This document shows, one piece after another, positions 1,437-36,010 of a stretch of 64,000 nt of DNA. The notes below the pieces were generated by a model. The model did not search any database. It was not told the origin of the DNA and saw nothing but the letters and a program-made list of their open reading frames with translations. Made by a program: the position numbers and the translations under genes. The stretch comes from Agarophyton chilense (Eukaryota > Rhodophyta > Florideophyceae > Gracilariales > Gracilariaceae): positions 1,550,001 through 1,614,000 of the forward strand of contig JARGXX010000068.1 in the NCBI GenBank assembly GCA_030374765.1, written 5' to 3'. Positions within the stretch are counted from its first letter, which is position 1. The number at the start of each line of letters is the position of its first letter.

Positions 1437-2298
1437 TGTAGGACAATGCCCCCAAGGGGGAAAACCTACGAAGACGTCCGGATCTTCCTCTCACGAGGTA
1501 ACCGGCGCGGTAGAACCCTCCCAGGGATCGGCGCGCAATGCCGGGTGTAAGCCGGAGCCGAACCGTCGCGACGGCGCAGGGAGGCTGAAAGAAGCCGAGA
1601 ATATCCGCTGGAGCGGTGCTTGCGTATCCTCTGAGGAGGCAAAACCCAGGAGAGTGGCGAGCACGACAGGTGTCAGTGCGAGCCGCAAGAGCGGGAATTG
1701 CCCAATGAAGGGGAGGAAATGGGAAGGAAAATGGGAACGGAGGCAAGAGGGCGAGGTTGACCACGAGTCGCAAGAGGAAACTCGGGAATAGCCGGCACTG
1801 CCGGGTGTAGCAAACCGTATACACGGGCGGAACCACGAAAGTGGGAATAGATACCCAACACACGAAGGCTGCTTGAACGTCCAAGGGGGTTGGGAAGCCG
1901 TGCACCACGGGAAATCCCTCCGTAAGGAGTTGTATATCCGCCCAGGCGGTTCGACCCGGAGCCAAGATCTGGAAGACCAAGATCACCCTTGTTGGGGAGA
2001 CTTTACTGGACCGGCGGACGCGAGGCCGGCGGTCTAAGTACTGTAGTCACAGTAGAATAGAATAAATAAAGTCTATTCTAAATAGCTAAATGTCCGTCTA
2101 ACAAAGGGGCCAATCTGGCGGCCACGTGTCGCGCGGACGCTGCGGCCACGTGTATGGCACCCGGTCCCGCCGGTGCATCACCGGCGTTCCGGCAACGCTG
2201 TGAAAACGGATTACTCCTACTCATAAGGAGGTTGCACGCCGGAGGCTCCCGAAAAAACTTAAGTCCCCAAAAACCTCCCTGGAGGACGTTGCTCTTCA
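1437..2298 (-). repeat. E1 3' LTR
   Basis: Direct repeat of 10702-11563, with ends TGTAGGACAATGCC and GTTGCTCTTCA on the plus strand. Read in the element's own direction it starts TGAAGAGCAACG. It carries the conserved TATA-like core at 1815-1830. On the minus strand a stretch of about 196 codons is open through most of the LTR, and the same is true of the other copy. I treat this as a GC-rich chance ORF because the promoter core lies inside it. Confidence 0.95.
1815..1830 (-). promoter_or_regulatory. LTR core promoter candidate, CCGCC..TGTATA motif
   Basis: On the minus strand the LTR reads CCGCCCGTGTATACGG. The same core recurs in the other E1 LTR (11080-11095) and in the diverged E1-type LTRs near 34558, 51031 and 60085, always about 290-390 bp before the LTR's far end. 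Conservation among otherwise diverged LTRs suggests a TATA box. This is an inference and no transcription start is known. Confidence 0.5.
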
Positions 2299-2345: not shown

Positions 2346-4139
2346 ATGGCAGCTCGTCATGATAAGAGCGCGTCCGACACCGGGTCTCCGGAAACCAACA
2401 CACCTTCACCAAGAATCCCACGCACGCCCTCCGCCTCCGATTCCCACCACAGCACACCAACGCGCACCATGTCCAACCCCGACCGTCATAACACATCCGC
2501 GACTCCCGCCCTTGGCGGTTCCACCGGCTTCCGGTCCGCGCCCCACCCTGGGGATGTTACCAACCGAACTCCGGCCGTCAACCTCGCGTACGAAGACCGC
2601 CGTATTGGCGCCCGCTTTCGCGGACAGGCGGACCCACCGCAGTGGCCGACCTCCGACGCCCTTGTGGGTGCAAATCCGAGAACTCTGCATGGCTCGGCGA
2701 TGTTGCGGTATGCGCCTTGGTTTCACCCATTGGCTGTCCGCGACGAGAATTTGATCCAGTCCTACACCGATAATTCGGAGATGCTCCCGGGCGACCTGCC
2801 CGGCGTGGTGACCATGTCCTGAGATTGGCGTAATCGTATCGCCATCCCGGTACACCACATGCTCCGCCGACGCGGTGAATCCTCTGCGGAGGCTCAGGCC
2901 GCACTTCTGCGGATCGCGTATCTCAGGCACCATCGGGCGCCTTTCGAGTTCCCGATACCGCCAGAGGTCGAATTCGACGTCCACCTTTACCGCACTCGCG
3001 GGGAAATGTCGTACTGCGACCGTCTCAACGGATTGGAAACCCTCACCTGGAGGGGCACACCGATCGCTCGGCAAGAAGCCCTTTGCTGGGTACGACCGAT
3101 TCTTCGGGCAGAGTTTCGCTACCAACCGCGGCAGTCGCGCTCGAACTTCCTTCAGAACTTCATCCGCGATGAGCGGCGTTGGCGGGCCCGGACCGGGTAT
3201 TTCGTACCGTACCAGAACACGGAGATTGAGCGCATCGCGCCTGCTCACCGATGTGGTCGGTACGTCAGTCTCTCAGACTGGTGGTCCTCCTTGGAGGCGT
3301 GCTGGGGTTGCTTCATTGAGCTGCCCCCAGTCTTCACCTATGTAGGGTCGTCGTTCTTGAACGATCCCCAGTCGGGGTGGTGGTCCGTCGTGGTAAGCGA
3401 ATGGGCCGTCCGCACTGCGGCTTTTATCCTCGCTGAGGCGTACGGCCAATATCGATTGTGGTACGTGCCACCGCGTGTGCGGGCTGCGATCCGCCGTTTG
3501 GACATGCGCATCCCCCTCGGGGGCGAGGCGAACGAAGAAGAGATGCTGCGCCTCCTCGAATTTGTGGAGGGGGTCCAGTGGGATGAGGTCCCGCTGGAGA
3601 ACTCCCAACGCATTCAACCGCGTCGCGGGTCTGGCCCCGGACTCGGGAGGAATACCGCGCTAGCGGGGGATTTCATCTACTTCGACCCCTGGGATTACCA
3701 CAAGATCAGCCGCGAGGAAGCGGAAGCCAACCGGCATGCGCCGCGTGAAGTCCCGGCCGACCACCCGCGAGGGTATGTCGACTCGAGCGACTATTACCGC
3801 GACTATGCGGATGGTGACCCGATGGTCGACAACGAACCGGAGGATCCGGGTTACGTTCCGATGGAGGGTGACGAGTCCGGCGAGGCCGGTGAAGAGTCCG
3901 TTGAATACGATGGTGCGGCTCCATCCGGGGCTGCTGATGCCGTGCGAACGGATTCCTATCCGACTCCATCGGTGGCGGGCCCGCCCGCAACTGCCGCTGG
4001 CGCGGAGCGGGGCGAGGTCATCGCGCGCTTCCTTCGGGAGGTGGGGCTTCGCCCTTCCGAGATCTCGGGTGATGTGGCCGCCATGCGGGATGCCTTAGCC
4101 AACCGCCTGGGCGGGGGTCCACCTCGTGCGGAGGAATGA
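2346..4139 (+). CDS. E1 antisense ORF (unknown protein family), one in-frame TGA
   Basis: A reading frame runs opposite to gag-pol from ATG 2346 (or ATG 2469, context ACCATG) to the stop at 4139. A single TGA at 2820-2822 interrupts it, and the frame continues unchanged on both sides. Without that stop the product would be about 597 residues: a proline/serine-rich N-terminus, a central Trp/Arg-rich part, an acidic Tyr/Asp-rich stretch, and a short helical C-terminal segment. I recognise no domain. The segment APFEFPIPPEVEF matches TPFRYFIPPIYPS in E2's antisense ORF, and EEEMLRLLEFVEGVQWDE resembles EKTEALLEHVLQVEWGKT in E3's. The TGA aligns with an Arg in E2, so a CGA to TGA change is likely. 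The start lies only 48 bp from the LTR edge, so antisense transcription from the LTR is plausible. It converges with the chromodomain ORF. Confidence 0.65.
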
Positions 4140-4471
4140 CCGGAGCTTCCGGTAGAATGTAGGGCGGCGCCACTAGGGCGCCCTTGCCAGTAGTGAGAAA
4201 TAAAAGAAGTGGGTCGCCTTTCCGACGCCCTTTCCCAAGTCCGCTTCTTTCTTTCCGGGGTACCGGCCTTCTACCGGGGTTCCGGCGTTGCAGGGAACCA
4301 GCCTAGCTGGGAGTTCCGTGTTTAACGGTAGGCGCTTCGCGCGCGGACCAGGTAACTGGCACGACCACCAACGACGTTGGGATAGAGTGAGCGGTTGCTT
4401 CCTTCCCCGCGTTGAGGCATGGACGGAGATGGCGCGTGGCGCCATCAGCCATTCCATTCCGTGTTCACGGT
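4140..4471. other. Spacer between convergent ORFs in E1
   Basis: This 332-bp gap separates the end of the antisense ORF from the end of the chromodomain ORF. It holds several short GC-rich stems such as CCGGAGCTTCCGG near 4140. I see no coding evidence in it. It could hold transcript 3' ends for both strands. Confidence 0.5.
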
Positions 4472-5779
4472 TTATCCCTCTTGGGCGTTTACCAGCGTGG
4501 CTGGGAGTGCGGTCCCCGCAAGGCGGTGGTATCGCATTACCGCGGAGCGCGGGAGGTGCTCGATGGGCTCCGGGGTGTCCCACTCCGGCCCGTATCCGTA
4601 CCAGCGGGCCCGGTACTGGAGCACCCCGTGCTCATCGTAGCTATGTCCGACGATTCGGTCGAGGACGTACTCCTGCACGTAAACTTGCCGGCCTTGCCGG
4701 GTGGTGGTGGCCCGAGCCTCAGCGCCGCGTGGTGCTGGGCTCGTCGTCGCCTGTTCCGGGTCACCCGGTTTGTCATTCCGCTCTGCGGTTGTTGCCGGGT
4801 TGCCGGGGCTGCCGTACCGCTTCGCGGAAGTTGCCGGCGCGGCCGGGTTGTGTTTCCGCTGGGCGGTAGGGGCTTCCCTGAAGTCCGCCCTTACCGCGAG
4901 TTTGCGGGGGTCCTTCCGTCTTGGTGACGGTTCGCCGGAGGCCTCCGCTTGATTTGCGGCATGCAGAGTTCCCATTGGTGGGCAGTTTCCGCTGTGCGGT
5001 GCGCCATGGGTGGTGAGTGGGTCACCGTCCCGGCGATCCGCCTCCGCGGGGTGGCTGTCAGCCAATGACCGGGATGCCGGGTGCCCAATGGTCCGATCTC
5101 CCGCCCGGGTCACGTGACCTTGAGGACGGGTGGTCGGGCCGTTGCGGACGGTTGGCTTCGATTGTTCGGCAAGGGAGGCCGTTTTCGACTTGTCGTCGCG
5201 CCCCTTTTCCCCCATGGGGTTCGTACCGTTCTCAACGGAGTGGCTCGCTAGACCTGCTTGCGCAGCGCCCGCTGGAGTACCGGTATCGACCAAAACGCTC
5301 GGTGTGCGACCGCGAATGTGCGGGGAGCCCTTAGTTGCTTCCACGCGATGCGGAGCGTCCGTAGGGTCTCGCTTCCCGGCTTCGGGTCTTCGAGCGCCTC
5401 GGTTCCCCTTGCGGGGTTGCGTGGCGGTCGGATTGACCGCCGCGTCCCGCGCGAGCGGAGTAACGTCCGGCGACGATGCCAGTTGCCTGCTCGTGGGCCT
5501 TGCCCGGGGTGTCCGGTTAATCTTCCGTTGCGACGGCGATGCTTTCGCGATTGAGCGGGTCCCCTCCCCCTCCTTAGACGGAGCGAGGGGTGATGGTGGG
5601 CTAACCGCATGGCGGGTATAAATACCGCTGCGCGGCGCCCGTAAGGGTAGCTGGCCGCGAGGGCCAGGTGTTTCCGGCATTGCCGGTGGTTCCGATAAAG
5701 TCGGTATATCGGAGAGACCCTGTGAGGGGTGCGGTACCACGGCGGGGCTTCTAAGCCATGGTGCCACGGGTACGGGTGT
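4472..5779 (-). CDS. E1 pol tail: basic low-complexity chain plus C-terminal chromodomain
   Basis: This frame is continuous with pol: one TAA (5780-5782) ends the RNase H ORF and the same frame stays open to 4472. The first in-frame alternative start is GTG at 5767 and there is no early ATG. About 360 residues are Pro/Arg/Ala/Thr-rich with no recognisable fold. The last 70 residues form a chromodomain, from EYVLDRIVGH through YRARWYGYGPEWDTPEP. In chromoviruses this module sits at the integrase C-terminus and directs insertion to chromatin marks. Here no HHCC finger and no DDE core precede it. The ORF may be reached by stop readthrough or from its own message, or it may be a remnant. Confidence 0.75.
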   Translation of the reverse strand, partial: TPVPVAPWLRSPAVVPHPSQGLSDIPTLSEPPAMPETPGPRGQLPLRAPRSGIYTRHAVSPPSPLAPSKEGEGTRSIAKASPSQRKINRTPRARPTSRQLASSPDVTPLARDAAVNPTATQPRKGNRGARRPEAGKRDPTDAPHRVEATKGSPHIRGRTPSVLVDTGTPAGAAQAGLASHSVENGTNPMGEKGRDDKSKTASLAEQSKPTVRNGPTTRPQGHVTRAGDRTIGHPASRSLADSHPAEADRRDGDPLTTHGAPHSGNCPPMGTLHAANQAEASGEPSPRRKDPRKLAVRADFREAPTAQRKHNPAAPATSAKRYGSPGNPATTAERNDKPGDPEQATTSPAPRGAEARATTTRQGRQVYVQEYVLDRIVGHSYDEHGVLQYRARWYGYGPEWDTPEPIEHLPRSAVMRYHRLAGTALPATLVNAQEG

Positions 5780-8473
5780 TTAATTCTCGCGCGCTGCGAG
5801 TAGCTCATCCATTTCCATGGTGTCTTCCCCGGTTTCGGGCCAATCCGACTCCGTCGGTGTTTCCCCTTCCAAGGTAAAGCACGGGATCTCGTCGACCTTC
5901 GGGTCGGCAAGTGCTTCACCTATCGTAGGTAATCGAGAGAGGGCGTCTGCTTGGGTGTTCTGGACACCCTTTTTGTAGACGACCTCGAAGTCGAATTCCG
6001 CTAAGCGGAGGCGCCAGCGCATTAAGCGGCCAGAAGGATCTGCGATGTTCAGCAGCCACCTCAACGAGGCATGGTCCGTGTACACGGTGAAATGAACGCC
6101 CATGAGGTATGGGCGCAGAGTGGATAGCGCCCAGACCACTGCGAGGCACTCCTTCACGGAGAACGAGTAGTTGCGCTCGTGGACGTTCAGCGTGCGGGAC
6201 CAATAGCCAATTGGTTTGCGTTCCCCCTCGGGGGTGGTTTGGAACAGTGCGCAGCCCACCTGGTGGTCGCTGGCGTCGGTGTCGATGGAGTATGGAAGCC
6301 CAGGTTTGGGCAAGGATAGGATGGGAGCTGTCGTAACTGCCTTAATCAAGGAGCGAAAAGATTCCAACTGATCGGTGGTAAATGGCGCAAGCTTCGGTGG
6401 CTGGCCCTTCCGCAGTAGCGCGTTTAGCGGAGCGGCGATATTGGAGAACCTCGGTATAAACCGTCGATAGACGTTGACCAGACCTAAAAAGGATCGGAGC
6501 TCCGTTTGAGTACGGGGCTCCTTCGCCTCACAGAGGGACTTGATACGAACTTGTTCGATCATTAACCGTCCTGGACGGATGACGTCCCCGAGATACTTCA
6601 CCGTGTCGGGGAAGAACTCGCACTTCCTCAACTTGAGGGTTATTCCTGCGTCTCGCAGTACGGTCATCACGTCCCGCACATGGGTCAGGTGATCGTCCAG
6701 GTTTCTGGAAAAGACAATGATGTCGTCCAAGTAGACAAGGCACGTGCGCCACTTGAAACGCGACATCAGTATGTCTATTGCCCTTTGAAAGGTGGCCGGT
6801 GCATTGGTTAAACCAAACGGCATCCGCTTGAAGCGGTAGGAACCCGAGTGGCAAACAAACGCGGTTTTGTCTCGGTCCTCTTCCCGGACTGGGACTTGCA
6901 AGTAGCCCCAGTTAGCATCCAGAGCCGTAAACACGGTAGCGTCCCCGAGCGAGTCTATACACTCGTCCATGCGCGGAATCGGGTAGGTGTCCCTCACGGT
7001 GACGACATTGAGGCGGCGGTAGTCAACGCAAAACCGCCACGTGCCGTCAGCCTTGAGGGCCAGCACCACCGGTGAAGCCCAAGGAGATTGGGCGGGCTCG
7101 ATGACTCCAGCACGGAGCATCTTATCCACCTGAAATTCTTCCTCCTCCCGAGCTTTCGGTCCCGCCCTGTAAGGGGGTTGTGCAACCGGACGTGCGTCCG
7201 GTAGCAGGTCTATCCGATGTTCGGTTGTATTGATCTCACCCAGTGAGCCGTCCCACATTGTGGTTAACTCGCGTAGCATTCCGCGTAAGCGGTCCCGGTG
7301 TGAGACCGGTACATGACTCAGGTCCAGGTCCTCGAGGGCCTTGATCGGGTCTATCTTATCGTAGCTCGTAGGCTGTGCCCTGGTGTCAGGTGTGGGAACC
7401 GGCGAGGTCGGAAATGCATCCGTCTTGACGGTTTTATCGAGCGCCAACTGCTGTGCCTCCCCGGGGGTTTCTGCACCGGATACCGGGAGACCATCCTCGG
7501 TAGAGGGAGTTATTCCGAGTACTTCGGCAGCCGTCACCTTTGTAGGGAGCATCGCGAGCGGGTGCGGCGTCACAGACCCAATGACTTGGTTCTTTGACAG
7601 CGTCTGGGGAGCCTTTCCCAGATTGGCAACCAGCACCCTGAAAGGGGAATTCGGCGTGACTTGCACGATTCCGTTCGCAACGGTTAACTGAAATTTCTCG
7701 TACAACGAGGGCAAGGGCTGAACAACCCGAAGACCTTGTTGACGGGAATTGACTGAAACCATAACCTGGCTCTCCGGGGGTATGGTTACTGACGAGGCAA
7801 CGCGTAGCTTCGTAGAATCCCGGTTCGCCGGTGTGGGTTTCTGCGCAGCAGGTAGAGAAACGTGTTTCCTCGATGCCCGCTTCAGCGGTTGACGAACAAT
7901 GGGGACGGTCGATCCGTCCTCAAGTTCCACCTGCTTAAGACGTGGGCGGATGGCGTCGACAAACCTGTCGCAGTAGTCACATCCCAGTATAACTGGCGCG
8001 GCCAGCGAGCGGCACACAATAAAAGTTAGTTTAACCACCATCCGCCCTAGCCTGACGACCAGGTCGATCACACCAGCCGTTTTCAACGGGTTGTTATTGG
8101 CGTCCGACACGTCGGGTACCGTTTCAGAACGGATGAGTGACCGCAATGGCGGGGGTAAAACCGATTCCACAATAAAGTTCGGCCCAGCACCTGTATCCAG
8201 GACAGTGAGATGTCTCACCATAAACTGCGTGTGCAGACCAAGGTCAGCGTAAACCTTGTAGTTACGCTTGGCCAATACCAAGACTCTATCCGGGATCCGG
8301 TTATTTCTAATCCGTAGCCACGGTCGACGCAAAACACCGAGGTGTTTAGAGTCCGCGTCTGCAGTGTCCTTCCTTGTCAGGATTTTCACCGGGGAGCGAG
8401 GCATCGGCGCCTCGGGCGTCGTCAGCCTCAACTCTGAGGACGCCTCTCCCGAAGGGGAGACTCCCTCTATTCT
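5780..8473 (-). CDS. pol: E1 Pol: protease, reverse transcriptase, RNase H
   Basis: The ORF has no ATG near its start and is open upstream into the preceding frame, so entry by -1 frameshift at 8473-8479 is likely. Numbering from TTG at 8431: aspartic protease motif DTGAG at 79-83; RT from about 400 with PIPRMDE, ALDANWGY (Asp 505), MPFGLTNAPATFQR and YLDD at 567-570; tether; RNase H with DTDASD (Asp 718), KECLAV (Glu 761), YTDHASL (Asp 786) and QADALSR (Asp 829). It ends about 55 residues past RNase H at TAA. All catalytic residues I expect for these three enzymes are present. Integrase, which normally follows, is absent. The E5 relic aligns over the same span and continues into an integrase. 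Confidence 0.93.
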   Translation of the reverse strand, partial: RIEGVSPSGEASSELRLTTPEAPMPRSPVKILTRKDTADADSKHLGVLRRPWLRIRNNRIPDRVLVLAKRNYKVYADLGLHTQFMVRHLTVLDTGAGPNFIVESVLPPPLRSLIRSETVPDVSDANNNPLKTAGVIDLVVRLGRMVVKLTFIVCRSLAAPVILGCDYCDRFVDAIRPRLKQVELEDGSTVPIVRQPLKRASRKHVSLPAAQKPTPANRDSTKLRVASSVTIPPESQVMVSVNSRQQGLRVVQPLPSLYEKFQLTVANGIVQVTPNSPFRVLVANLGKAPQTLSKNQVIGSVTPHPLAMLPTKVTAAEVLGITPSTEDGLPVSGAETPGEAQQLALDKTVKTDAFPTSPVPTPDTRAQPTSYDKIDPIKALEDLDLSHVPVSHRDRLRGMLRELTTMWDGSLGEINTTEHRIDLLPDARPVAQPPYRAGPKAREEEEFQVDKMLRAGVIEPAQSPWASPVVLALKADGTWRFCVDYRRLNVVTVRDTYPIPRMDECIDSLGDATVFTALDANWGYLQVPVREEDRDKTAFVCHSGSYRFKRMPFGLTNAPATFQRAIDILMSRFKWRTCLVYLDDIIVFSRNLDDHLTHVRDVMTVLRDAGITLKLRKCEFFPDTVKYLGDVIRPGRLMIEQVRIKSLCEAKEPRTQTELRSFLGLVNVYRRFIPRFSNIAAPLNALLRKGQPPKLAPFTTDQLESFRSLIKAVTTAPILSLPKPGLPYSIDTDASDHQVGCALFQTTPEGERKPIGYWSRTLNVHERNYSFSVKECLAVVWALSTLRPYLMGVHFTVYTDHASLRWLLNIADPSGRLMRWRLRLAEFDFEVVYKKGVQNTQADALSRLPTIGEALADPKVDEIPCFTLEGETPTESDWPETGEDTMEMDELLAAREN

Positions 8474-9147: not shown

Positions 9148-9150
9148 TGC

Positions 9151-10557
9151 TTAAGCGGCCTTCGACCGGGTTCCCGGATTGCGTGCACGTAGTGCATCTC
9201 CCTCTGCGCGGGCAAACTGTACGAGTTCAAGGTAGGTCACTTTCGGCTCTTGTTCCCTGTAACGAGCGACAAGAGTCTTGATGGCTGGATCCAAGCCATC
9301 AATGAACATCGTACAGCGTTCCCCAGCGGGGTATACATTACCACAACGGTGGAAAGCCTTATTCAGGCGTACCGAGTAATCGGTCTCGAGCTCGCCGGAG
9401 CGTTGTCGAGTGTCTCGCAAAGCGAGTATCGCCGCTTGTATCGCGGAGTTGGTTGCGTAGGAACGCAGGGGGTACTGCACGGCCTCGGGCCAGTAGGTCA
9501 CACCTCCTTCGGAGGCTCGCGACGAGCCCCGAACAGACAAAAACTGATCTTCAGCGACACCCCTTAGAAAGTAGGGTAGCGCCACGTAGGCTTGCCCTTC
9601 GTTCATTACGAGTATATCGGCTTCCGCTACAAAGCAGTGTAGGAAATCCAAGACCAGAATTGGATCATCCCCAGTAAACGACTGGTTACGAAGTGAAAGC
9701 TGCATCCGCTTGATGCAGTCTTTCACTTTACCCGTGTCACGCGGTGTCCGACCTAAAGAGGAATCTTCTAGCCGGTAATACCGGTAGGACAGGAGTGTCC
9801 TGTACAGAGGGTTGGTGGGCTTCAAGGGTTTGAGGCCCGGATCTCGCCGACCCTTGGGGCGCCACCGGATGGCCCCGTAGGTGGCAGAGGGCCGCTTTGA
9901 GCGGGAAGAGCGCCCATAACGATCCTGTGGGTCATCGCTCACCGACGAATCGGAACTCTCCGAGTCACTCGGTTTACCGTCCGACTCAGATGATGAGTCG
10001 GAAGGGTGTCCGTGCTTACGGTTAGAATCCCAGTTCTTCCGGCTCTTCCGGTTCCGCGACTGGGTCTCTCGATGAGAGACAACCGGTCTAGCCACGTTCG
10101 CGGGCGAGGTTAACGTCCTCTCGACCGACTCAAGTCGGCTTCGGAGACGCTCGAAGCGATTCTCCATACCTTGTGCGGAGGAAGACGGAGCGCAAAAACA
10201 CTCGAGTAGTGTATTGACGTCCGACCGCAATACGCGGATATCCTCGGCTAACTCACTTGTAGGGGGGTTAGCGAGGCTTCCTCGTAAAGAGGTGAACTCC
10301 CTCGAGAGGGTATTGTGAGCAGCCCGCAGGGAGCGGAGCTGCTCTTCCAAGCGTACAATCCGCGCTTGGTCGACCAACCGCGGAGGCGGAGAAACCACCG
10401 TTGCGACGGTCGTTAACCCGGAATCGGGCTGCGGGTCTTCAGTGCCGGTGACCGGTATCTCCCGGGAATCCGGTGTTGGAGCCAGGGCCTGTGGAACATC
10501 AGTGCCCCTGGCATCACCGCTTTGGCGGGAACGGCTGCGTGTTGCAGGAGGCTCCAT
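9151..10557 (-). CDS. gag: E1 Gag (matrix/capsid)
   Basis: I chose the ATG at 10557 (MEPPATRS); an upstream GTG start at 10587 is less likely. The roughly 468-residue product has a disordered Pro/Thr N-terminus, predicted coiled coil at about 61-150 (leucine heptads in RIVRLEEQLRSL), an Arg/Ser then acidic Ser-rich stretch at about 160-225, and a capsid-type region at 250-460. The capsid region is recognisably shared with E3 and the E5 relic: YRYYRLEDSS against YRNYRLADRS, and HRCGNVYPAGE against YRCGNVFSEG. It ends at TAA 9151-9153 with the zinc-knuckle frame continuing in phase. It forms the particle core in retrotransposons. Confidence 0.9.
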   Translation of the reverse strand: MEPPATRSRSRQSGDARGTDVPQALAPTPDSREIPVTGTEDPQPDSGLTTVATVVSPPPRLVDQARIVRLEEQLRSLRAAHNTLSREFTSLRGSLANPPTSELAEDIRVLRSDVNTLLECFCAPSSSAQGMENRFERLRSRLESVERTLTSPANVARPVVSHRETQSRNRKSRKNWDSNRKHGHPSDSSSESDGKPSDSESSDSSVSDDPQDRYGRSSRSKRPSATYGAIRWRPKGRRDPGLKPLKPTNPLYRTLLSYRYYRLEDSSLGRTPRDTGKVKDCIKRMQLSLRNQSFTGDDPILVLDFLHCFVAEADILVMNEGQAYVALPYFLRGVAEDQFLSVRGSSRASEGGVTYWPEAVQYPLRSYATNSAIQAAILALRDTRQRSGELETDYSVRLNKAFHRCGNVYPAGERCTMFIDGLDPAIKTLVARYREQEPKVTYLELVQFARAEGDALRARNPGTRSKAA

Positions 10558-10680
10558 GCTAGGCGGTTTCCTTGGCACTGGCCACACCGTCTCGACGGAA
10601 GAATAGAAAGCAAACCGGTGAGACCGGAGAAAACCCGTTATACGGAAAACAACCTCAGAGAGGACACAAGCGGTCTTGAC

Positions 10681-10698
10681 TTCTAAGTCGGGAGACCA
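10681..10698 (-). promoter_or_regulatory. E1 primer binding site
   Basis: The minus strand reads TGGTCTCCCGACTTAGAA, starting 3 bp inside the 5' LTR. It begins with TGG, as expected for pairing with a tRNA CCA end. E3 has the identical 18 bases, and E2 and E5 have mutated versions. The tRNA itself cannot be named from this window. Confidence 0.85.
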
Positions 10699-10701: not shown

Positions 10702-11563
10702 TGTAGGACAATGCCCCCAAGGGGGAAAACCTACGAAGACGTCCAGATCTTCCTCTCACCAGGTAACCGGCGCGGTAGAGCCCTCCCAGGGATCGGCGCG
10801 CAATGCCGGGTGTAAGCCGGAGCCGAACCGTCGCGACGGCGCAGGGAGGCTGAAAGAAGCCGAGAATATCCGCTGGAGCGGTGCTTGCGTATCCTCTGAG
10901 GAGGCAAAACCCAGGAGAGTGGCGAGCACGACAAGTGTCAGTGCGAGCCGCAAGAGCGGGAATTGCCCAATGAAGGGGAGGAAAAGGGAAGGAAAATGGG
11001 AACGGAGGCAAGAGGGCGAGGTTGACCACGAGTCGCAAGAGGAAACTCGGGAATAGCCGGCACTGCCGGGTGTAGCAAACCGTATACACGGGCGGAACCA
11101 CGAAAGTGGGAATAGATACCCAACACACGAAGGCTGCTTGAACGTCCAAGGGGGTTGGGAAGCCGTGCACCACGGGAAATCCCTCCGTAAGGAGTTGTAT
11201 ATCCGCGCAGGCGGTTCGACCCAGAGCCAAGATCTGGAAGACCAAGATCACCCTTGTTGGGGAGACTTTACTGGACCGGCGGCCGCGAGGCCGGCGGCCT
11301 AAGTACTGTAGTCACCGTAGAATAGAATAAATAAAGTCTATCCTAAATAGCTAAATGTCCGTCTAACAAAGGGGCCAATCTGGCGGCCACGTGTCGCGCG
11401 GGCGCTGCGGCCACGTGTATGGCACCCGGTCCCGCCGGTGCATCACCGGCGTTCCGGTAACGCCGTGAAAACGGATTACTCCTACTCATAACGAGGTTGC
11501 ACGCCGGAGGCTCCGGAAAAAACTTAAGTCCCCAAAAACCTCCCTGGAGGACGTTGCTCTTCA
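10702..11563 (-). repeat. E1 5' LTR
   Basis: 862 bp, about 98 percent identical to 1437-2298 by my count. It drives the sense transcript leftward. The TATA-like core is at 11080-11095 on the minus strand. The right edge CTTCA is followed by the target duplication AAAAC and then immediately by the left LTR of E2 (TGTCG). Confidence 0.95.
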
Positions 11564-12192: not shown

Positions 12193-13353
12193 GATCCCTT
12201 TCCTGCCCGTGAGGCACGCCCCGTGTCTCCTTTCATCAACCCATAGAGGTGTTGCGAGCGACAGCGGCGCGGGCATCGGGGTGGTGTCTGCGCGCGGCGC
12301 GCCATCTCTTGAGGTTCAGAACTCGGCGCCAGAATCGGTTGAGGACGGCGCGCGGCGACGTCGGCGCACAAATTGAGCGACAACCATTCAGGAAGGGACT
12401 ATCATGAGGGCGATGCAGTGTAACTAGCGCGCTCGCGGTCACCGTTTCGGTAATGGCCCTGCTTGCTTGCGATTTTGCTTCCGCATAGCCGCCCAGCCTA
12501 ACCAAGTTGGTGTCTCACCTTTTCCTGGTTACTCAAACCTCAATTCCTTCCTAGGTCCCTGCGCAGCGCCATCCCACCTTGTCGTTCCTACGGCTCGACA
12601 ACCCTTAACGTAGTGCTGCCCTTAATTGGCGGCGTCGCGACCGTAACCGTGCTGTCCCGCTTTTCCCTGAAGATTCCCTGGCTTCCCGACCTTTCATGTT
12701 TCGTCTACCTTGTAAGGATTGATTCGTGGTGCCGGTGGGGTCTGACCCTGCGTCGATACAACCATTGAGGTGTAGGCCTGGGTCCTTGGTGGAAGCTTCC
12801 GGTTGTGAGACCTTATTGGTGTTGAGCGGCTCCGTCAGTAAATACGCGACCTTTTTCCGGTTTTGCATTCCGGTTTACCCTCAAGGCACTGAGAGGATCG
12901 CGCCGCCTCCGCGCACGCGTTCGAACCCATTCGGTACCACGTCGGTGCACCTCGCGCCGCATCGTGGATTCGTCACCGATACCTCGGAGGGGTGGGTCTT
13001 CCCCACAAGCAGCACCAGCGCTCGAGAGACGTGAGATTCCGGTTACCATTGAGGTTGAAGAAGTCGGAGATTCCGAGGGGATTGATACCCCTGCAGTTAG
13101 GCCTTTAAGGTCGGATTGGTGCAGTTCCACGATACGTCAAAAGTCTGGACCCGCTCGCGACCGCACGCTGGCCACTGTTGTACCCGAAATGTCAGTGTCG
13201 GTACTATTGGAAAGTTTGGATCCGTTGGCCGTCTCCTCAGAGCGGACAGAGGAGGCTCTACTTCAGAACGATGAATACCCGCTGGTGTTCACCGCGGCGG
13301 TGGAGGTCGATTTATCACCTCGTTCGTCGGGTCGAGCTACGGCCTTCCCAACC
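12193..13353. other. E2 region between LTR and antisense ORF
   Basis: About 1.16 kb of GC-rich DNA. The reading frame of the antisense ORF is already open from 12964 (GTG), but no ATG occurs before about 13189. The rest shows no recognised coding sequence and may serve as leader or promoter for the antisense gene. Confidence 0.4.
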
Positions 13354-14049
13354 ATGTCAGGTAGCGGCCCATCTCGTGGCCGTGGACGCGATGGTATTAC
13401 CAAGAGGGTGACTCGCTCGACTTCTCGAACGCCTACCAACATTGGGTTTCGCAGCATGCCTGTCCCTGGGACTCAGTTCTCCCCTGGGACTACGGCTGAC
13501 CCGCACCAACGGAGTCGTGGACTTCCTTCAACGACCCAAACCAATTGGGCTTATAATCTCGCGTTCGGTGCGGCGAACCGGACGACGAGTCAGTATGGAC
13601 CTTTTGGTATTACCTTCGACCAGGTGACGAACAATGACCTGTTGAAGCACGATTGGCCTGTGGTGGTGGTGAATTCGTCACTGCCGGCAGCTCTTACCAG
13701 ACCACAATTGGATACCTACTTGGGTTTGTCCCGTTGGGACTGCGAGCGCCTTCGCTCCGTTCCATTGCTTTTGAAGAAACGGGACCAAGAGTCTCAACCT
13801 CGTCAGGGTCAACTGAAATGTTACCAGAGTCGGCAGCGTCATACACCTTTCAGGTATTTCATCCCGCCGATATATCCGAGCGACCTACCGTATGTGCGCA
13901 TCGAACCGGAGCTGGATTATTACCGTCGATTGGTGGTGCAAGTGTGCCAGTACCCGTCTATTCTGGAGACTTACCTTCCGGTTTCACCTGACTTGGTTTA
14001 TTTTGTCGACCAGTTTGATTGGGTATCATCCCCTCTTTCACAAAGTTAA
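13354..14049 (+). pseudogene. E2 antisense ORF, homologue of the E1 antisense ORF
   Basis: The start at ATG 13354 (context ACCATGTC) matches the second ATG of the E1 ORF. IGFRSMPVPG here resembles TGFRSAPHPG there. Further matches are RWDCERLRSVPLLLKKR to DWRNRIAIPVHHMLRRR, and PELDYYRRL to GEMSYCDRL. The frame ends at 14049 after about 231 residues (361 codons if counted from 12964). A later piece, FIYFNSWEG, occurs near 14115 in another frame and corresponds to FIYFDPWDY of E1, so the gene once ran further and is now truncated. It lies on the strand opposite E2 gag-pol. Function unknown. Confidence 0.6.
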
Positions 14050-14140: not shown

Positions 14141-15874
14141 ATGTAGTATTCTACTACTTCGGCGTTCCGATGGGTTCTTTGTCGCAAAGTTGCGTTTGGA
14201 ACTCATTACTGAGTGGCCTGGTCAGTGCTGGGATAAAAAGCGACACACCGCGTAGGATGCCAGGAGGCAAGGTACATTGTTGGGACACGTGGTATCACGA
14301 GTGGAGTGGCTTGCAACGGCGCATGTAGTGGAGATCCACGTGGCTGGTTTTACTACCCTTTGTAGATGTAAGTCCATTAGGGACCATACCCATACAGTGG
14401 TTTGGCTAAGTGGCTGACCACTGGGTATTATTTATATATTTATTTGGGCATTCACCCTGGTACACAGTATATAGTGTACCAGAGGTGAGCGCCGACTCCA
14501 AGTAAAAGAGACAACATGGGCATCATGATTATTCTGTTCCTCGCTTAGGATTCCTTAACCGGAGATCCGGACGAGCTATAATAGATAGTCCGCCCCCAAC
14601 CAATTCACGATCCGTCGCGTACCTACGTTCCATCAATGTTTTACAGTTGCACTGTTCACCCTCGCTGGCGAGTAGTGGCCTTACACCCCAATTCCAGCTC
14701 GCTGGTGTTGTAGCTCTACCACCCCTTTTACTTCGCCGCAAGCGGCCCATCGGCAGTCCGAACGCTGTCGCAGGTGTCTACTCTCTCCGTTAGAGCGGAT
14801 ACTACAGGGAATGAGGTTTCTTCAGAGAAAGCTAATGAACTGTGGTTTGCTGCCAGGTGTATCCCTGAGGAAGATTCGTCCCGTTTCATTGATGCATAGT
14901 ATTATTTTAACGTCTACAGTGACGACCAGATGTTGAAAAATGAACCCAACTATGCGATGGTGTTCGCTGAGGCAATTTAATCCCACGTTATGGATCAGCA
15001 ACCCAAGAGAGGGAACGATGTGGTGTCATATAGGTACGTCGATAAACTTGTGGGGCTGCTTCTGGCGTGACTGATGGTACTGATCTTGCAGCTCTACCAG
15101 TAGGCCTCCCGGATTGGGGTGCAACAGTTCCATGCGTTGCAAGTGCCAGTCCGTTGTTGTAGTATCCGCTCTAACGGAGAGAGCAGACACCTGCGACAGC
15201 GTTCGGACTGCCGATGGGTCGCTTGCAGCGAAGTAAAAGGGGTGGTAGAGCTACAACACCAGCGAGCTGGAATTGGGGTGTAAGGCCACTACTCTCCAGC
15301 GAGGGTGAACAGTGCAACTGTAAAACGTTGATGGAACGTAGGTACGAGACGGCTCGTGAAAGGGTTGGGGGCTGACTATCTACTATAGCTCGTCCGGATC
15401 TCCGGTTAAGGAATCCTAGGCGAGGAACAGAATAGTCATGATGCCCATGTTGTCTCCTTTACTTGGAGTCGGCGCTCACCTCTGGTACACTATATGCTTT
15501 GTACCAGGGTGAGTGCCCAAATAAATATATAAATAATACCCAGTGGTGAGCCACTTAGCCAAACCACTGTATGGGTATGGTCCCTAATGGACGTCTAGCT
15601 ACAAAGAGTAGTAAAGCCCTCCACGTGGATCGCCACTACATGCGCAGTTGCCAATATGGTATTCCCCTAGGAAGGGTCGCAACTATGCGCGCGCCGTGGT
15701 AAGCCACTCGACCCATGACGCCACGTATTCCACTAAGACAATCTGCCTCTATGCATCCTATGCGGGATGCCGTTTCATATCACAATGCTAATGATAACAC
15801 TCACTCATGAGTTCCAACTGCGACTTCGCGAAAACCAAACCTATCGGATTCCCCGACGTAGTAGAATACTACAT
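14141..15874. repeat. Large imperfect inverted repeat (arms about 670 and 715 bp)
   Basis: Left arm 14141-14806 is repeated in reverse complement as 15158-15874, with a loop of about 350 bp. Examples are GTTAGAGCGGATACTACA against TGTAGTATCCGCTCTAAC, and matching ATGGGCATCATGA blocks. The right arm has an extra segment near 15655-15690. The arms differ at scattered sites only. A nested palindrome lies at about 14459-14482 around GTATAC. A transcript would fold into a very long hairpin. Confidence 0.85.
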
Positions 15875-16688
15875 TTGTGTCCGACGAGCGTTGTCTCCCA
15901 TTTTCTTTGCGAAGTGGGTCTGGGTACTAGGGTTGCTACTGATATCGTTGCGGACATGCGCTCGGCTTTGATTTCCGACCTCCCCGGAAGCCATTCAGAT
16001 TGTGGCCATCTCATTCCGTAATGAAGTCATAGTGCCCAAAAGGTTATAAAGCTTTCTGATGTATGGTAGTTTTCGAATTCTATAAACAATATCGATATAC
16101 TCAAGTAAATTACGATTGGCTTGTGCATTCTTCTTTCTTCTTATTTCAAAAATTATAAAATAAATCTATCTTCTGTCTTCTTCACTCTTTTACTACTCTT
16201 TCACCACGATAGTTGAACTATCTCACCTGGGCGTGAACGGTCGTCACAGGAATCCCAGTCCGTGTTCGGCGGTGATATAAAACAACTCTTCCATTTGAGA
16301 GAGGCTGAATAGGTGCATCCGAGTCGGCATCGGGACTATAGCTGTATCAATGGATAAGGTACTTTTCTTAATCATCCGGATGGTATGATTGTATCATTAT
16401 GTTGTCGATAACGAATTCCTGCCCGTAACTCTTCTGGATGGGCCGTGTGTGTGCTGCAAACCCATTTCCAGGATACGGCTCTGAGTCGCGCTTGATGGGT
16501 TAACTTGCTAATCTCCGTCCGAACGAACTGGAAGTCAAAAGAATAGGCTTTTGAGCAAGTTTGCGTCGTGCACCCGGGAGTTGATTGTCTTGGACGCTGA
16601 TTTGTCTATCTCCCGAGGTCGGAAATATATGACGTGCGCTATCCAAGTGATGGCTGAGAGCGCTCTGTGCATTGGAATGTTCCGATTC
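15875..16688. other. E2 interior, no gene recognised
   Basis: Between the inverted repeat and the solo LTR. The only ORFs are short and overlap on both strands. I see no conserved motif. It is probably decayed retroelement sequence. Confidence 0.4.
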
Positions 16689-18099: not shown

Positions 18100-19500
18100 G
18101 ATGAGCTCTTTAGCGTCGTCCGTCTCTACCATAATGGCATAGTCGCTAACAGACATAATCTATAAGGTCCCTATGCGATAGGCGAGAGCTGGCGGCTCTT
18201 CTTCTTATCAGGGTTCTGATACTTCTTACGGATGAAGACGTAGTCACCCGACTTGAACGTTTGCGCTGTGTACCGCAAGAGACTGTCCAAATCACGCTTG
18301 TATGATTGCGCATGAGCCATTGAGCTGAAAGCCAATAGAATCAATTCTGTCAGCCACTAATTCTACTTGTGGCGGTAATATTTCTGAGAAGGTCTTCTTT
18401 AGCATAGGCTAGAATGCCACCGCGATAGTGGGAAAAGGGCGGGACAAAACTAATCTGAATGGATTCAATTCAATTGTACGGCGCACTGGCGTATTGTAGG
18501 CGATTGTGAACGTGTCAGTAAACACATTCCAACGTTTTGGGCGATCTTCTACGTACGAAAGGATAGATGCGAGTAGCACTAGATTAAACACTTTGTTTTT
18601 GCTATTTCCCTGCGAATGGTTGGTAGTTATGAAGGGATTACTGATATCGAGAATCTGAAACCAGTTCTCCAAGATTCTCGATGCCAAGGGTTTTCCACTT
18701 TAGGACAGAAGATAAACGAGTGGGCCCTACATAAATAATCAGTAGGTTACAAAAGCCTTTGCAACCGTGAAAGCGGGTATCTACTTTCAAGATACAGTCC
18801 AAACTATCTTTGAAAAACGATCCGTAATAACGAGTACTAATTTTTTCCCACGTCCAGTTTTTTGTAGCGGGCTGAGAGTGTTGATTTTCAAAGACTCTAA
18901 AGGAGCTCTGGCAGGGTAAAGATTCTACTTCGTTTAATTTTTACGTAGTTTCACTCGATTCTTACCACATTCCGTGCAACACCGCACTGTTGCGTAGCAA
19001 TCCACAGCCATTGCTGGCCAAACATCTTTCGTAAAGTGAGGTAGAGCTTCCGTGTACCAGCGCATCTACCTTTTTTCGCTGAACGCGACAAATGCAAACC
19101 TTTTAGACTGTAGAGTAAACGAATCCACTACTTTTTGGCATGACCGCATCGTTTTTCCGATGTCCTCATTGCCGTTTATCTCGAGAAGAAGTGGTGCGCC
19201 AACGTTAAGACGGGTGCGTATCTTGGTACAAAAAGACTCGCCTGATTGTTCTCTAACCATCTTCTTCCGAGGTTTCGGAACGAAATTTCTTCGGGAGGGC
19301 TTTTCAGTTTCGTCAGTGACCAGTAATGTGTCCCATTCAGCATCTAATTTACGATCTTCAGACCATTTATCATGTATCCAATCGCGTTTATACGGTGCTT
19401 GGTCACCTTGGCTGAAGGAACTTGTATTCTGGTCACCGGCAACCAGAGCTTCTCCATTCGTGGGTACACGTGATAGAGCGCCCACTTGCACGTTTCGCAT
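18100..19500 (-). pseudogene. E5 RNase H end and integrase relic
   Basis: VGALSRVPTNGEAL near 19.45 kb corresponds to QADALSRLPTIGEAL of E1, fixing the RNase H terminus. Downstream come the integrase finger cysteines in CCTECGKNR (about 18.97 kb), the core strand LVLVITDRFSKIV, the AYNTPVRRT stretch (18.5 kb), and the C-terminal GDYVFIRKKY with an ERVLIAS-type tail (18.25-18.06 kb). This shows that E1's close relatives carried integrase at exactly the point where E1 stops. Numerous stops exclude function. Confidence 0.75.
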
Positions 19501-20159
19501 GCTTTTCTTGTAGATCGCTTCGAAGTCCTATTCAGCTACGCGGAGTCTTCAGCGCATTAAGTGGCCTGAATTATCAGAGACGGTTCAAAGCCATCTTAAA
19601 GAAAAGTGATCTTTATAAACAACAAAATGCATGTCTATGAAAAAGAGGCGAAGAATAGAGAGGGCCCACACGATGGCGACATTATTTCTCCGACAGGGAG
19701 TAGTTATGATTGTGGACATTCAGCGAACCTGACCAATACCCAGAGGGTTTCCGTTCAGCTTCGGTATTTGTTTATAATAGAGCACAGCTTAGTTGGTAGT
19801 CACTCGCATGTGTGCCAATTTCAAATGGTATTCCGGGTTTCGGCAACGATAAGGTTACAGTTTACGTGATGGCATCACTTAGATAATTTAATTCCTACGT
19901 CCGGGCAGACGTTAAGGGTTCAAACTTCGGTTGTTAACCTTTCCGGAAAGGCCCTTTTAAAGGCTCGGCGATGTCTGCACAGTTCGGTATAACTCGTCGG
20001 TTCACGCTGATCGATTCTATAAAGGAGCGTTTTCGTTTCTGAGTGGGAGGATCTTTCGATGGACGAAACTATTTCGCTCCCGTTTTTTCGATCATTACCT
20101 GTCCAAGAAGGATAATGTAACCAAGATACTGTTCATTTTCTGTGAAGAAGTTACATTTA

Positions 20160-21918
20160 CCGAACCTGAGGATAATTACAGCTTCATATATCGGTCAAAA
20201 TGTCCATGACATGGTTCAGGTGGTCATTCATATTATCTGAGTAAACTATGATTTCGTCCAGATTGACAAGGAAGATACTCCACTTTAAAGAGACGAGTAG
20301 GATATCCAGAGCACGCTGAAAAGTAGCGGGGGCATTTTTCAGACCGAACAGCCACCATTTGAAGCAGTATAGTCTATAATGACAGACAAAATAAGTATTG
20401 TCTTGGTCTTCTTTCCTGGCGCGAACTTGTTAGCATCTGCAATTGTTGTGCAAAACCAAAAAAACGGTAGTAGTGCCGAATGAATCGATAAACGCATCCA
20501 TGCTTTGTATCGGATACATGTCTTTGACGGATACGTTGATAAAGAGACTGTAGCCGATACAAAATCGCCAAAATCCATCGGGCTTCGGAGCCATTACAAC
20601 TCGAGATGGCCACGGCAACTGAACCGGTTTGATTTCTCTAGCTCGGAGCATTTTTATGACTTTTAAGAGTTCCTTCTTACGAGCCTTGAAGCCTACCATT
20701 TAAGGGTGTTGAGAAAGTGGTCTAGCGTTAGGCAGCAAGCCTATTATATGTTCCGTTGTAATAATATCACCAAAAGAGCCATCCAACGTTGATGTAAACT
20801 CCCGGAACATGTCACAAAGGCGTTCATAGTGCGATTCCTTCATATGTCGGAGGTTGAGTTCGTCGAGTTCTTTCACGCGGTCTATCGGGTCATAGCTGGT
20901 TTGAACGGGTTATTTGTTTACTTTGGCAGGTTCTCGGACCAGACTGCTGGGTGATTGAGTAACCGGGTTCTCCCTCTTCTCTGATTGAACGATTCTAAAT
21001 ACACCAGCAGCGTTAAACTTGGTAGGGACCATGGCGGTGAAGTGAGGCATGACCAAACCGATAACTTGGGTTTTCAGCAGTAATTTCGGTGTGGCGCTCA
21101 GATTGGCAACCTAAACCGTGAGAGGGTTGTATGGATCATTCTGCTTATATCCATTTGCTATGGCTCGTTGATAATTATCGTATAAAGGGTTGAATTGCGT
21201 GTAATATGTGTCGGTGGAAGATACCATGCACCCAGACCTGCAACTCGGATGGAATTCGTATCGACACGGCCAGGCGGAGCATAGTAGATTTATGCGAAGC
21301 GGGTAGAGCCTCCAGCGCTACAGGTAAGCGTATGAACTTCTTCGAGGGACGTTTTAACGGAGGACGAACAATTGGAACCAAGTAACCGTATTCCAGGTAC
21401 ACACGTATTATGTGGGTTCTTATCGCATCAATTTTTTTTAATAATAGTCAAATCCCACAATTAAGAAGGGCGGCCAATTATCGGCATACCATGAAATGAA
21501 TCTTCATCATGAATGAGCCCAAGCAGACGACAAGGTCGATAATTCCCAGAGTTGACAACAGATTGGTATACGCGTTTGCGACGTCTGTACTTGCACCAAG
21601 CCGAATCTGGGACCGCGAGAAAGGAGGCTAAGGCTATTTTACGATAAAGTTACGGCCAGAACCTGTGTCCAAATCAGTTAAAACTCGCATTATAAATTGG
21701 GTAGATAATCCAAGATCAGCACACACCTCGTAATTGCGCTTGATCATTACTATGGTTCTATCCTGGAATCGTTTAGATTTATTTCGTTTCCACGGTCGAC
21801 GCAGAATACCAAATATTTTAGAGTTCACGTATGAGACGGCCTGTTTCATTGTTAGGATTTTGACCGGAGATCGAGGCGGAGACGTCTCGTACGTCGATAG
21901 CCACACTGTCGGAAACAC
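20160..21918 (-). pseudogene. E5 protease and reverse transcriptase relic
   Basis: The protease part (21918-21634) keeps DTGSG. The RT part has PSRVVMAPKPDGFWRF, MYPIQSMDAFIDS and LKNAPATFQRALDIL. The polymerase motif reads NLDE instead of YLDD. Several stops and frameshifts break it. It aligns in order with E1 Pol. Confidence 0.8.
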
Positions 21919-22522
21919 CTCTCCAAAATGAGAGACTCGTTCCGTATTCAGTTTTTCTGTGTCTCTATCGCCAAAGACGGGGCCTCATAATCCTGAACCA
22001 TTAACAAAGGAGTGCCAGTGGCGTTGTCCTTATGAGTAGTTCGCGGTTGGGTTGTTAGAGGTACCGGGTTGAGCAACGCATTCTGCGAGTACGTATCCAG
22101 TATAATTCGTGGAGTGCGTTTTTGCAATGATTTAGAACACCATGGGAACGATATTTTTCTAGTGAAGGGTCAATGCTTCAAAAAAACCGATCATTCTGGC
22201 GTTTTTTTCAACTTGAGAATTGCTTCTGGTTCAATATGACCGTGTTAGTAACATAGAAGGCATATGAGTCCATTGATTGGCAGGGACAAACCAAAGAAAG
22301 AATTAATGAACTTCAGCGCCGGACCGGTATCCATCCTGGACGACTTTTCCGAATACTTGAGATCCCATTGGGCATAAAAAGCCCTTGGACACGGGGTGGA
22401 GCTGCGTAAAGGAGAGGGTGTTTCTGAGAGGTGTCGTAAGTGACATCTGTAGTGGACGGGAGTTCTGTTGTCGGAATAGACAGGATATCACTGCCAGGCG
22501 ATTGGAAATGGGCGAAATGTCT

Positions 22523-24088
22523 TTAGGGGAGCCCTCTATCGTCCAGCGATAATGATGTCAAAATAGTTTGCATCACTAATGTTTTGGTGAAATAGAACTT
22601 CTGAACATGGATGCAAGCTCGGAGGGCATCTCTTTTCGCTTGAGCCACCCGTTTTGACTCCAAATACGCGATTTCTTTTCTTTCTTCTCGGTAACGGGCT
22701 ACCAGGGTAGGAATTGTGTGATCCAATCGACCGATATACATGTTGTCGTGCTCTTATGCGGATTCAACATTACCAAAACGGTCGAAAGCCTTGTTAAGTC
22801 GTACTTAGGCCTCTGTTTTTGTTCCTCCAGGCTTCTGGTGGGTGTCGCGAAGAGCAAGAATAGCCAATTGAATCGCTTTTTTAGTTGCATAGGGACTCAA
22901 GAGGTATTGCATGGCTTCGGCCAAACAAATGAGGCTTCTTTTGTAGGCTTGGAATGAACCTCTTACGGACTTGTACTGATCTTCAGCAAAGCCACGGAGA
23001 AATTACGGTAGCCCAATGTAGACTTGACCTTCATTCATCCAAAGACTTTCGGCTTCCACAACAAAAAGTGCAAGAAAATACAACACAAAGATGGGGTCGT
23101 CTCCAGAAATTGAATGGTTAGGGGGGGAAAGCTGCATACGCTTTAGGCAGTCCTTCAGCTTACGGGTGCCTCGAAATGTGTGACTCAATGAAGACTTTTC
23201 CAGCCGATAATATCGATATGATACCAGTTACCTCAGCACGAGGTTGGTGCACTCCGGGTCCTTTAAACCGGTGTGCTTCCTTCCCTTAGTAAGGGTACAA
23301 ACTACATCTTTGATGGCAGAACACAGTTTAAAACGACACGAATGCCCTCGATGAGCATCATCAGATGTGGAATCTGATTAAATCGACCCATTCAAATGGT
23401 GATAGTTCCGTAAAGCCCGGGAGGATTCCAAGATATCGGATTCGTAGTTGTTTTTCTTCTTACCATTTCGGCGACTGTAACCGTTTTTCTGGGGCGTTGC
23501 GTTTTCCGAGACAGCAGACGGCTACGATAGGACGATTTCGGCCATCGAGATGGTTTACTCAGACGTCTGCAGACGGAATCTCACATGATGGCATCGGGTG
23601 TCAACCTTTCCCATGTAAATGACAGCACCACCGAGACATTTCAACAGTGTGCTCCCATTCACCCGTAAGAGACAGAGGTCTTCGGAATAAGCCTTCACAC
23701 AATAGGTATCAAACCTGACACGTAGTACTTCTAACTCCTCTACGAGCGCATTGCGGGCTGCGCGCACCTCAAAGAGCTTCTTTCGAATGCCGGCATCATT
23801 TTCAAAATGGGATTTTCCCTCCTGGAACGTTGTGGAATCTCTGGAAACATGGGTGTTCACAGCAAGATTCGGTCGCTCTCCAGAAATGATTGCTTCATTC
23901 GAAGACTTCGCCAGTTGATTTCGCCTTTTCGAAAAGCCCTGGACCCTACCTTTAGGGTTAACGTTAGCCTCAGAAGGGAGGCCAGTGAAGAACCTCATCG
24001 AGGAACGGAAACCTGCGGTGAAAGTCCAGTCGGGGAAGAAACGGCTCCGCGTGTGGGTGTAGTCTGTATCCGATGGCCTTCGTGTCAT
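22523..24088 (-). pseudogene. E5 gag relic
   Basis: Capsid-like blocks match E1 Gag: GTRKLKDCLKRMQLS against TGKVKDCIKRMQLS, SGDDPIFVLYFLALFVVEAE against GDDPILVLDFLHCFVAEAD, and HTIPTLVARYREE against AIKTLVARYREQ. Split over at least three frames. The coiled-coil part is at about 23.6-23.8 kb. Confidence 0.75.
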
Positions 24089-24261: not shown

Positions 24262-24279
24262 TGCAAAGTCTGGAGACCA
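24262..24279 (-). promoter_or_regulatory. E5 primer binding site and LTR edge
   Basis: The minus strand reads TGGTCTCCAGACTTTGCA, four changes from the E1/E3 site. The following LTR starts TGAATTGACGTC at about 24282. Its first 50 bases resemble the E1 LTR with a short deletion. Confidence 0.65.
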
Positions 24280-35992: not shown

Positions 35993-36010
35993 TGGTCTCC
36001 CGACTTAGAA
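35993..36010 (+). promoter_or_regulatory. E3 primer binding site
   Basis: TGGTCTCCCGACTTAGAA, identical over 18 bases to the E1 site although the LTRs of E1 and E3 are unrelated by eye. Confidence 0.9.

Follow-up and report, generated by a model that had tools for sequence, protein, structure and literature searches.

Several red algal Ty3/gypsy elements with chromodomains very probably carry a true accessory gene on the strand opposite to gag-pol, judging from the sequences of many copies in the genome of Agarophyton chilense. By sequence this is a separate gene that converges on pol and does not overlap it. We refer to its frame as the antisense ORF (aORF). Open aORF frames are present in five lineages of this one genome (E1, E2, E3, E5 and E6), and there are relics in two more (E4 and E7). 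Our high confidence applies to the gene and not to a regulatory role for it.

The window is the whole 64,000-nt stretch of DNA that was analysed, C68:1550001-1614000, and the genome that we searched has 79.8 Mb in 135 contigs. A first-pass annotation of the window had proposed that three different Ty3/gypsy elements (E1, E2 and E3) share a family of antisense genes that is kept by selection.

Elements in the window

E1 has a 5-bp target duplication (AAAAC) and the following parts:

1437-11563, minus strand: E1, Ty3/gypsy element
1437..2298, minus: E1 3' LTR, 98.1% identical to the 5' LTR
2346..4139, plus: E1 aORF frame of 597 codons, not counting the final stop; one of the 597 is itself a stop
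4199..4204, plus (the aORF strand): AATAAA, about 60 nt past the E1 aORF stop
4472..5767, minus: E1 pol C-terminal ORF with a chromodomain-like end, convergent with the aORF
5780..8431, minus: E1 pol, reverse transcriptase and RNase H
9151..10587, minus: ORF in the gag position of E1, without a Pfam match
10681..10698, minus: E1 primer-binding site, 18 nt, identical to that of E3
10702..11563, minus: E1 5' LTR

In E1 the aORF start codon and the inner edge of the 3' LTR are 47 bp apart. The window copy has an in-frame stop at 2820-2822, and many other copies in the genome are open across 591 codons. The Pfam Chromo match of E1 has an E-value of 1.2e-4 and 22.4 bits, which is below the cut-off of 25.1.

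E3 lies on the other strand:

35543-45802, plus strand: E3, Ty3/gypsy element
35543..35989, plus: E3 5' LTR, with a 5-bp target duplication (AACAT)
35993..36010, plus: E3 primer-binding site
37095..42695, plus: E3 gag-pol, ending in a chromodomain with a Pfam score above the cut-off
42787..42792, minus (the aORF strand): AATAAA, about 75 nt past the E3 aORF stop
42868..44835, minus: E3 aORF frame, with three in-frame stops in the window copy
45361..45802, plus: E3 3' LTR, 89.1% identical to the 5' LTR

Here the aORF start codon is 525 bp from the 3' LTR, and the Chromo match reaches 28.8 bits (cut-off 25.1). E1 and E3 have an identical 18-nt primer-binding site although their LTRs align no better than shuffles. 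The LTRs of E1, E2 and E3 are indeed dissimilar, as had been claimed, with local scores below the 95th percentile of 100 shuffles.

The element described earlier as E2 (13354-14049) is not one element. We found an E2-type fragment joined at about 13993 to a separate E1/E5-like element, E7, and beyond that a further element, E4:

11577-13999: end of an E2-type element, LTR and aORF N-terminus, 90.7% nucleotide identity to genome copy L063
11577..12200, minus: E2-type 3' LTR region, right edge approximate
12769..13999, plus: E2-type aORF, truncated to the N-terminal ~410 residues
13993..14148, plus: E7, first piece of an E1/E5-type aORF remnant, containing FIYFNSWEG (14113-14139)
14807..14974, plus: E7, second piece of the aORF remnant, past one foldback arm
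16224..16460, minus: E7 chromodomain remnant
18361..23788, minus: E7 degenerate gag-pol
24262..24279, minus: E7 primer-binding site with 3 mismatches
24434..25351, plus: E4, C-terminal half of an E2-like aORF remnant, overlooked in the first reading
25734..29418, minus: E4 degenerate pol, convergent with its aORF

E7 is a degenerate element that starts at about 13993 and resembles E1 and E5. After its aORF remnants come, in this order, the chromodomain, integrase, reverse transcriptase and gag regions and finally a primer site that has decayed. We rejected the neighbouring pol as the partner of the window E2 aORF because that gag-pol belongs to E7. E4 is a degenerate E2-like element. Of the seven peptides quoted earlier as partial matches, six are within the ORFs named for them and one, FIYFNSWEG, is outside the E2 ORF. 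We do not take this peptide as a chance match, since it falls in the E7 aORF remnant.

Five window elements (E1, the E2-type fragment, E3, E4 and E7) thus carry the aORF family, and every window copy is broken. We confirmed the position, strand and start codons given for the three original ORFs, with the E1 and E3 frames lying between the pol end and the 3' LTR. Their description as long open frames has to be given up for the window: E1 has one in-frame stop, E3 has three and the E2 ORF is truncated.

Several other features lie in and around these elements. Within E7 there is a foldback of two 494-nt arms (14313-14806 and 15158-15651) that are 94% complementary with 351 nt between them, and its left arm separates the two aORF remnant pieces. 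E7 also contains a lone E3-type LTR (16691-17127, about 81% identical to the E3 LTRs). Two segments, 32962-33196 and 34892-35200, are about 68-71% identical to the E2-type LTR and are perhaps an interrupted E4 LTR. Upstream of the E2 aORF, an open stretch at 12071-12373 matches the E2/E3-type profile at 1.7e-9 and may belong to the upstream portion of a gene model like P0006. Elsewhere in the window are a fragment of a Copia-type reverse transcriptase (RVT_2, 48163-48600), two adjoining minus-strand ORFs with parts of a Tc1/mariner-type transposase (DDE_3 and a Tc3-like HTH, 53199-54200), a 291-aa cysteine-rich repeat protein with a 216-nt tandem repeat of 95% identity (55557-56432), a 443-aa cysteine-rich ORF without a Pfam match (62130-63461) and a short tandem array of GAAGCGAAAC (63761-63807).

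Copies and lineages in the genome

Searching the genome gave at least 98 aORF matches for E1, at least 113 for E2 and at least 142 for E3. Among the matches listed for E1, 71 of 98 have no stop in the matched stretch. The longest open ATG frames have 591 codons in E1 (L003), 836 in E2 (L063), 655 in E3 (L032) and 644 in E5 (L073), and the longest ATG-ORF in 300 dinucleotide shuffles of each of those four regions was 317 codons.

E5 (L073) is 47-51% identical to E1 in the aORF, and a chromodomain pol end converges on it; that chromodomain has 48% identity to the one in E1 over 134 aa. E6 (L074) is 41-42% identical to E1 in local alignment. Pfam gave no match to the E2 chromodomain at E<=0.001, and it shows up only when E2 is aligned with E1 (E about 2e-4 to 6e-4). 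When the distant protein P0004 was used as the query, at least 98 further places were found, none of them within 2 kb of the 98 listed E1 places.

Two copies have unusual arrangements. In L072, which is a mixed and apparently rearranged copy, an E1-like aORF fragment has a same-strand pol fragment close behind it; the copy also includes a stretch 83% identical to window positions 34078-34890. In L032 there is an inverted E3-type LTR (L032:544-993) just upstream of the open aORF of that copy.

Placement opposite pol

The proposal that the aORF sits antisense beside a gypsy 3' LTR was borne out across the genome copies. A listed pol of the same type is within 8 kb of 128 of the 353 listed aORFs, and among these matches 126 of 128 are convergent on pol, 124 by script and two more (C113:836458 and C117:1503177) by hand, since the same lists put their own pol at the usual position. 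The remaining two have a same-strand pol about 7.3 kb off that probably belongs to another element. We treat the 225 listed aORFs without a listed pol as uninformative, again among the matches listed. Counted from the other side, and with the same scope, 33/51 E1, 58/127 E2 and 39/119 E3 pol copies have a listed aORF within 8 kb.

We also looked at fetched loci with flanks. An opposite-strand pol end is downstream of the aORF in 30/30 E1 and 18/20 E3 loci. For E2 the count is 0/20, with pol starting past the 1.5 kb flank; in L063 and L071 the E2 pol does follow its aORF. The 3' LTR is upstream of the aORF in 30/30 E1, 19/20 E2 and 19/20 E3 loci, and the one E5 locus examined is convergent. The aORF copies are related by descent, so these copy counts are not independent.

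One protein family

Using the longest open genome copies, BLASTP gave 2e-18 for E2-E3, 9e-12 for E1-E2 and 1e-6 for E1-E3, and the best values in 39 residue shuffles per pair were 3.7e-4, 0.008 and 0.009, respectively. The window ORFs by themselves give weak BLASTP values (E1-E2 4e-4, E1-E3 7e-4, E2-E3 1.4). Across the lineages, protein similarity persists at about 25% identity.

Profile-profile comparison was named in the first-pass annotation as the place where a single family could fail, and similarity was found there. The hhalign probability is 97.8 for E2 vs E3. When the E1 profile includes four outside relatives it is 97.1 vs E2 and 84.3 vs E3; without them it is 94.9 vs E2 and only 17.1 vs E3. 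The E1-type and E2/E3-type profiles match each other at 97.3. We ran the E1-type profile on a decoy set of 3,156 sequences (17 natural proteins, 139 six-frame ORFs and 3,000 shuffles), in which it matched E1-type sequences, the L072 pieces and two E2 ORFs (about 1e-9) and no decoy; in the same set it missed E3 and the window E2 ORF. The E2/E3 profile matches P0001 at 2.8e-4. Chance similarity is ruled out by the shuffles and decoys. A common origin with gag or pol is unsupported, as the aORF has no match to the gag or pol ORFs. From these sequence comparisons we hold that the E1, E2 and E3 aORFs are homologous, with the E1-E3 link resting mainly on E2 as an intermediate.

Homologues are not confined to the three original elements, which was a further point raised about the family. 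Besides the many genome copies and two further lineages (E5 and E6), we found proteins in three named species: in Gracilariopsis chorda and Gracilaria domingensis, with 56-59% and 43% identity to E1, respectively, and in Agarophyton chilense, with 71% identity to E2 and 59-79% to E3. Agarophyton and Gracilariopsis are red algae of the Gracilariaceae. The search returned nine relatives in total, seven of them from these species. It scored only exact-word candidates (the best 8,000 twice and 5,156 once), and absence elsewhere is therefore weak evidence.

We built a tree of 17 proteins; alignment A4 has 22 rows, of which 5 were dropped. The E1-type proteins are split from the E2/E3-type with support of 100/100. 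E1 joins P0001 and the Gracilariopsis chorda protein P0002, not the E5 or E6 sequences from its own genome (84/89); E6 joins P0004 (98/100). Because E1 groups with P0001/P0002 and E6 with P0004, the tree, with moderate support, suggests that the aORF lineages predate the genera.

Purifying selection and origin

For pN/pS we used 29 E1, 20 E2 and 20 E3 copies, having dropped one near-identical E1 copy. Variants present in at least three copies gave 0.34 (95% interval 0.20-0.64) for E1, 0.39 (0.28-0.52) for E2 and 0.33 (0.26-0.42) for E3. Singletons, which should be mostly post-insertion variants, gave 0.58 (0.48-0.71) for E1, where the interval overlaps that of the shared variants, 0.95 (0.87-1.05) for E2 and 0.85 (0.76-0.94) for E3. 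The central third of the aORF has the lowest values (E1 0.14, E2 0.27, E3 0.19). As a control we used a C-terminal stretch of pol, which is perhaps a weakly constrained tail. Its shared variants gave 0.63 (0.37-1.13) in E1, an interval that overlaps that of the E1 aORF, and 0.89 (0.59-1.54) in E3. On these figures the aORF is conserved as other proteins of the element are. Between lineages, E1 vs E5 gave dN 0.47 and a near-saturated dS of 2.2, and E1 vs E6 was saturated. A dN/dS near 1 had been named beforehand as evidence against the family, and shared-variant pN/pS is 0.33-0.39. The E1, E2 and E3 aORFs were under purifying selection while their elements spread.

This result bears on the possibility that the functional product is an antisense RNA by which the element limits itself, with the ORF being incidental. 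Some LTR elements are reported to be regulated by antisense RNAs (PMC7264820; PMC12786077). However, the codon-position pattern fits the aORF frame: shared-variant pN/pS is 0.33-0.39 there vs 0.84-1.64 in four other frames (the frame with the same third positions gives 0.51-0.57). Similarity also persists in the protein at about 25% identity, and the ORFs are far longer than those in shuffles. We consider an RNA-only product highly improbable.

Another possibility is that the aORF is a passenger, derived from a host gene or another mobile element by a single capture. We found no Pfam family in 20 aligned aORF members (E<=1) or in five proteins (E<=10), no homologue in PHROGs or PDB sequences, and no relative in four viral-contig scans and one prokaryote-genome scan, which used short peptide patterns from one protein each. 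Weak Pfam matches to the window ORFs (E 0.16 and 0.34) were taken as noise, as were PDB matches at E 0.65 and 0.84; the other PDB searches gave none. This lack of a homologue counts against capture, as do the constant position and orientation across four lineages and the selection in three. On the other hand, a capture may be too ancient to be recognised, which would also explain why no relatives were found outside the elements, and our genome searches score the many element copies first, ahead of any single-copy host homologue. We find a passenger gene quite improbable, while an old capture that has since been put to use is possible.

Expression signals and possible function

A polyadenylation-like motif, A[A/T]TAAA, lies about 60 nt past the aORF stop in 29/30 E1 copies and about 75-85 nt past it in 16/20 E3 copies, with none on the pol strand. 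We found none within 200 nt of the stop in 19 E2 copies (0/19). The E5 stop is followed by a readable AATAAA and the E6 stop is not. No TATA[A/T]A was found upstream of the aORF in E1, E2, E3 or E5. We would expect the aORF to have an antisense mRNA of its own, with its promoter within the 3' LTR or immediately inward of it. The transcript would end in the gap of about 130-330 bp ahead of the pol stop. Its predicted product, of about 590-840 residues, is conserved in the core and variable in the tails, and would act in trans.

One view of such a protein is that it works in the particle or between cells, as an env-like, second structural or movement protein. The aORF is at the env position and is env-sized. 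The usual guide value for a membrane segment is a 19-residue hydropathy of 1.6, and the peaks are 1.75 and 1.94 in the E2 proteins and 1.82 in one E3 protein (1.36 in the other), so these hydrophobic stretches of E2 and of one E3 protein could be membrane segments. However, the hydrophobic peaks contain charged residues, the E1 proteins reach only 1.17 and 1.15, and the frame is antisense, not sense as an env-like gene would be. A structural role is further opposed by the lack of any match to the gag or pol ORFs. We regard this view as unlikely, and go no lower because the E2 proteins and one E3 protein exceed the guide value.

The function that we favour, tentatively and by analogy, would be a trans-acting regulator of the element's transcription, silencing or nuclear entry. 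Three points make us prefer a regulator to an envelope or structural protein: the antisense orientation of the gene, its lack of likeness to gag, and the precedents of Grande gene23 and HTLV. The E3 tails have a basic PPKKRARL-like stretch, altered in the Agarophyton protein P0009, that may be a nuclear signal. We found no nuclear-signal-like pattern in E1, and in E2 one weak pattern in one of two proteins. A fuller scenario, which we think possible but doubtful, is that the aORF was ancestral to the red algal chromodomain Ty3/gypsy elements and was inherited with pol through splits before the Gracilaria-Gracilariopsis divergence, and that it has a new fold and acts in trans on the silencing or integration of its own element, like HBZ but independently evolved.

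Comparison with known systems

Antisense aORFs as such are already known in plants and fungi. We found no report of the red algal family among the top-ranked open-licence literature matches. The protein family itself looks new, as do its occurrence in red algal chromodomain elements and its distribution across five lineages with open frames and two known from relics.

The closest likeness in arrangement is described for the aORF-3R of the plant Tat lineage, as in maize Grande (gene23), rice RIRE2 and Silene Retand (ORF4) (PMC7264820; PMC11963269). These are also antisense, lie between pol and the 3' LTR, and are common to related families. Gene23 of Grande is reported to be nuclear and to have a promoter of its own upstream (PMC7264820). 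Retand is described as a non-chromovirus with Transposase_28 in 97% of its clusters (PMC11963269), whereas E1 (below the Pfam cut-off) and E3 have chromodomains and the host is of another phylum. The earlier suggestion that the red algal family is separate from these plant genes stands, as the aORF has no Pfam match and is not recognisably Transposase_28 (PF04195) or a plant mobile domain (PF10536). In fungi, the Boty/BcGypsy1 element of Botrytis cinerea is described with an antisense gene, brtn (PMC8365987; PMC7264820); it is likewise an antisense extra gene in a gypsy element, and we compared it by description alone.

Other elements share less. Sunflower Tekay and Athila elements are described with extra proteins, mostly without known domains, from a Tekay 5' aORF, conserved in hundreds of copies, and from Athila aORFs; the Tekay aORF, however, is sense and 5', and the Athila antisense ORF has 70 residues (PMC11728184). 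In the mussel Steamer-like element MchSLE-1, an antisense transcript is described and ascribed to the 3' LTR, both strands have polyadenylation signals, and there is an ORF in antisense, but this ORF has only 67 residues and the passages on it report no cross-lineage family (PMC10974842). Bdelloid rotifer retroelements are described as sharing extra ORF3s of GDSL, DEDDy, coiled-coil or transmembrane types (PMC5408684). As in the red algae, one type of extra gene occurs there in diverse retroelements, although the red algal aORF matched nothing that we searched.

HTLV-1 has an antisense gene, HBZ, which encodes a bZIP protein. Like the aORF, HBZ is antisense to gag-pol; it starts from the 3' LTR and offers a model for how the aORF could work. 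In contrast to HBZ, the red algal aORF matched no bZIP or other Pfam domain, and a domain unknown to Pfam is possible. In HTLV the antisense promoter is described as lying within the 3' LTR (PMC7264820).

With many open copies in one compact genome, measurable selection and several species, the red algal family is a natural series in which structure, selection and expression could be tested to learn what antisense genes by the 3' LTR do. If the family predates the split of the lineages, antisense accessory genes are long-lived in red algae, as they are in plants and fungi.
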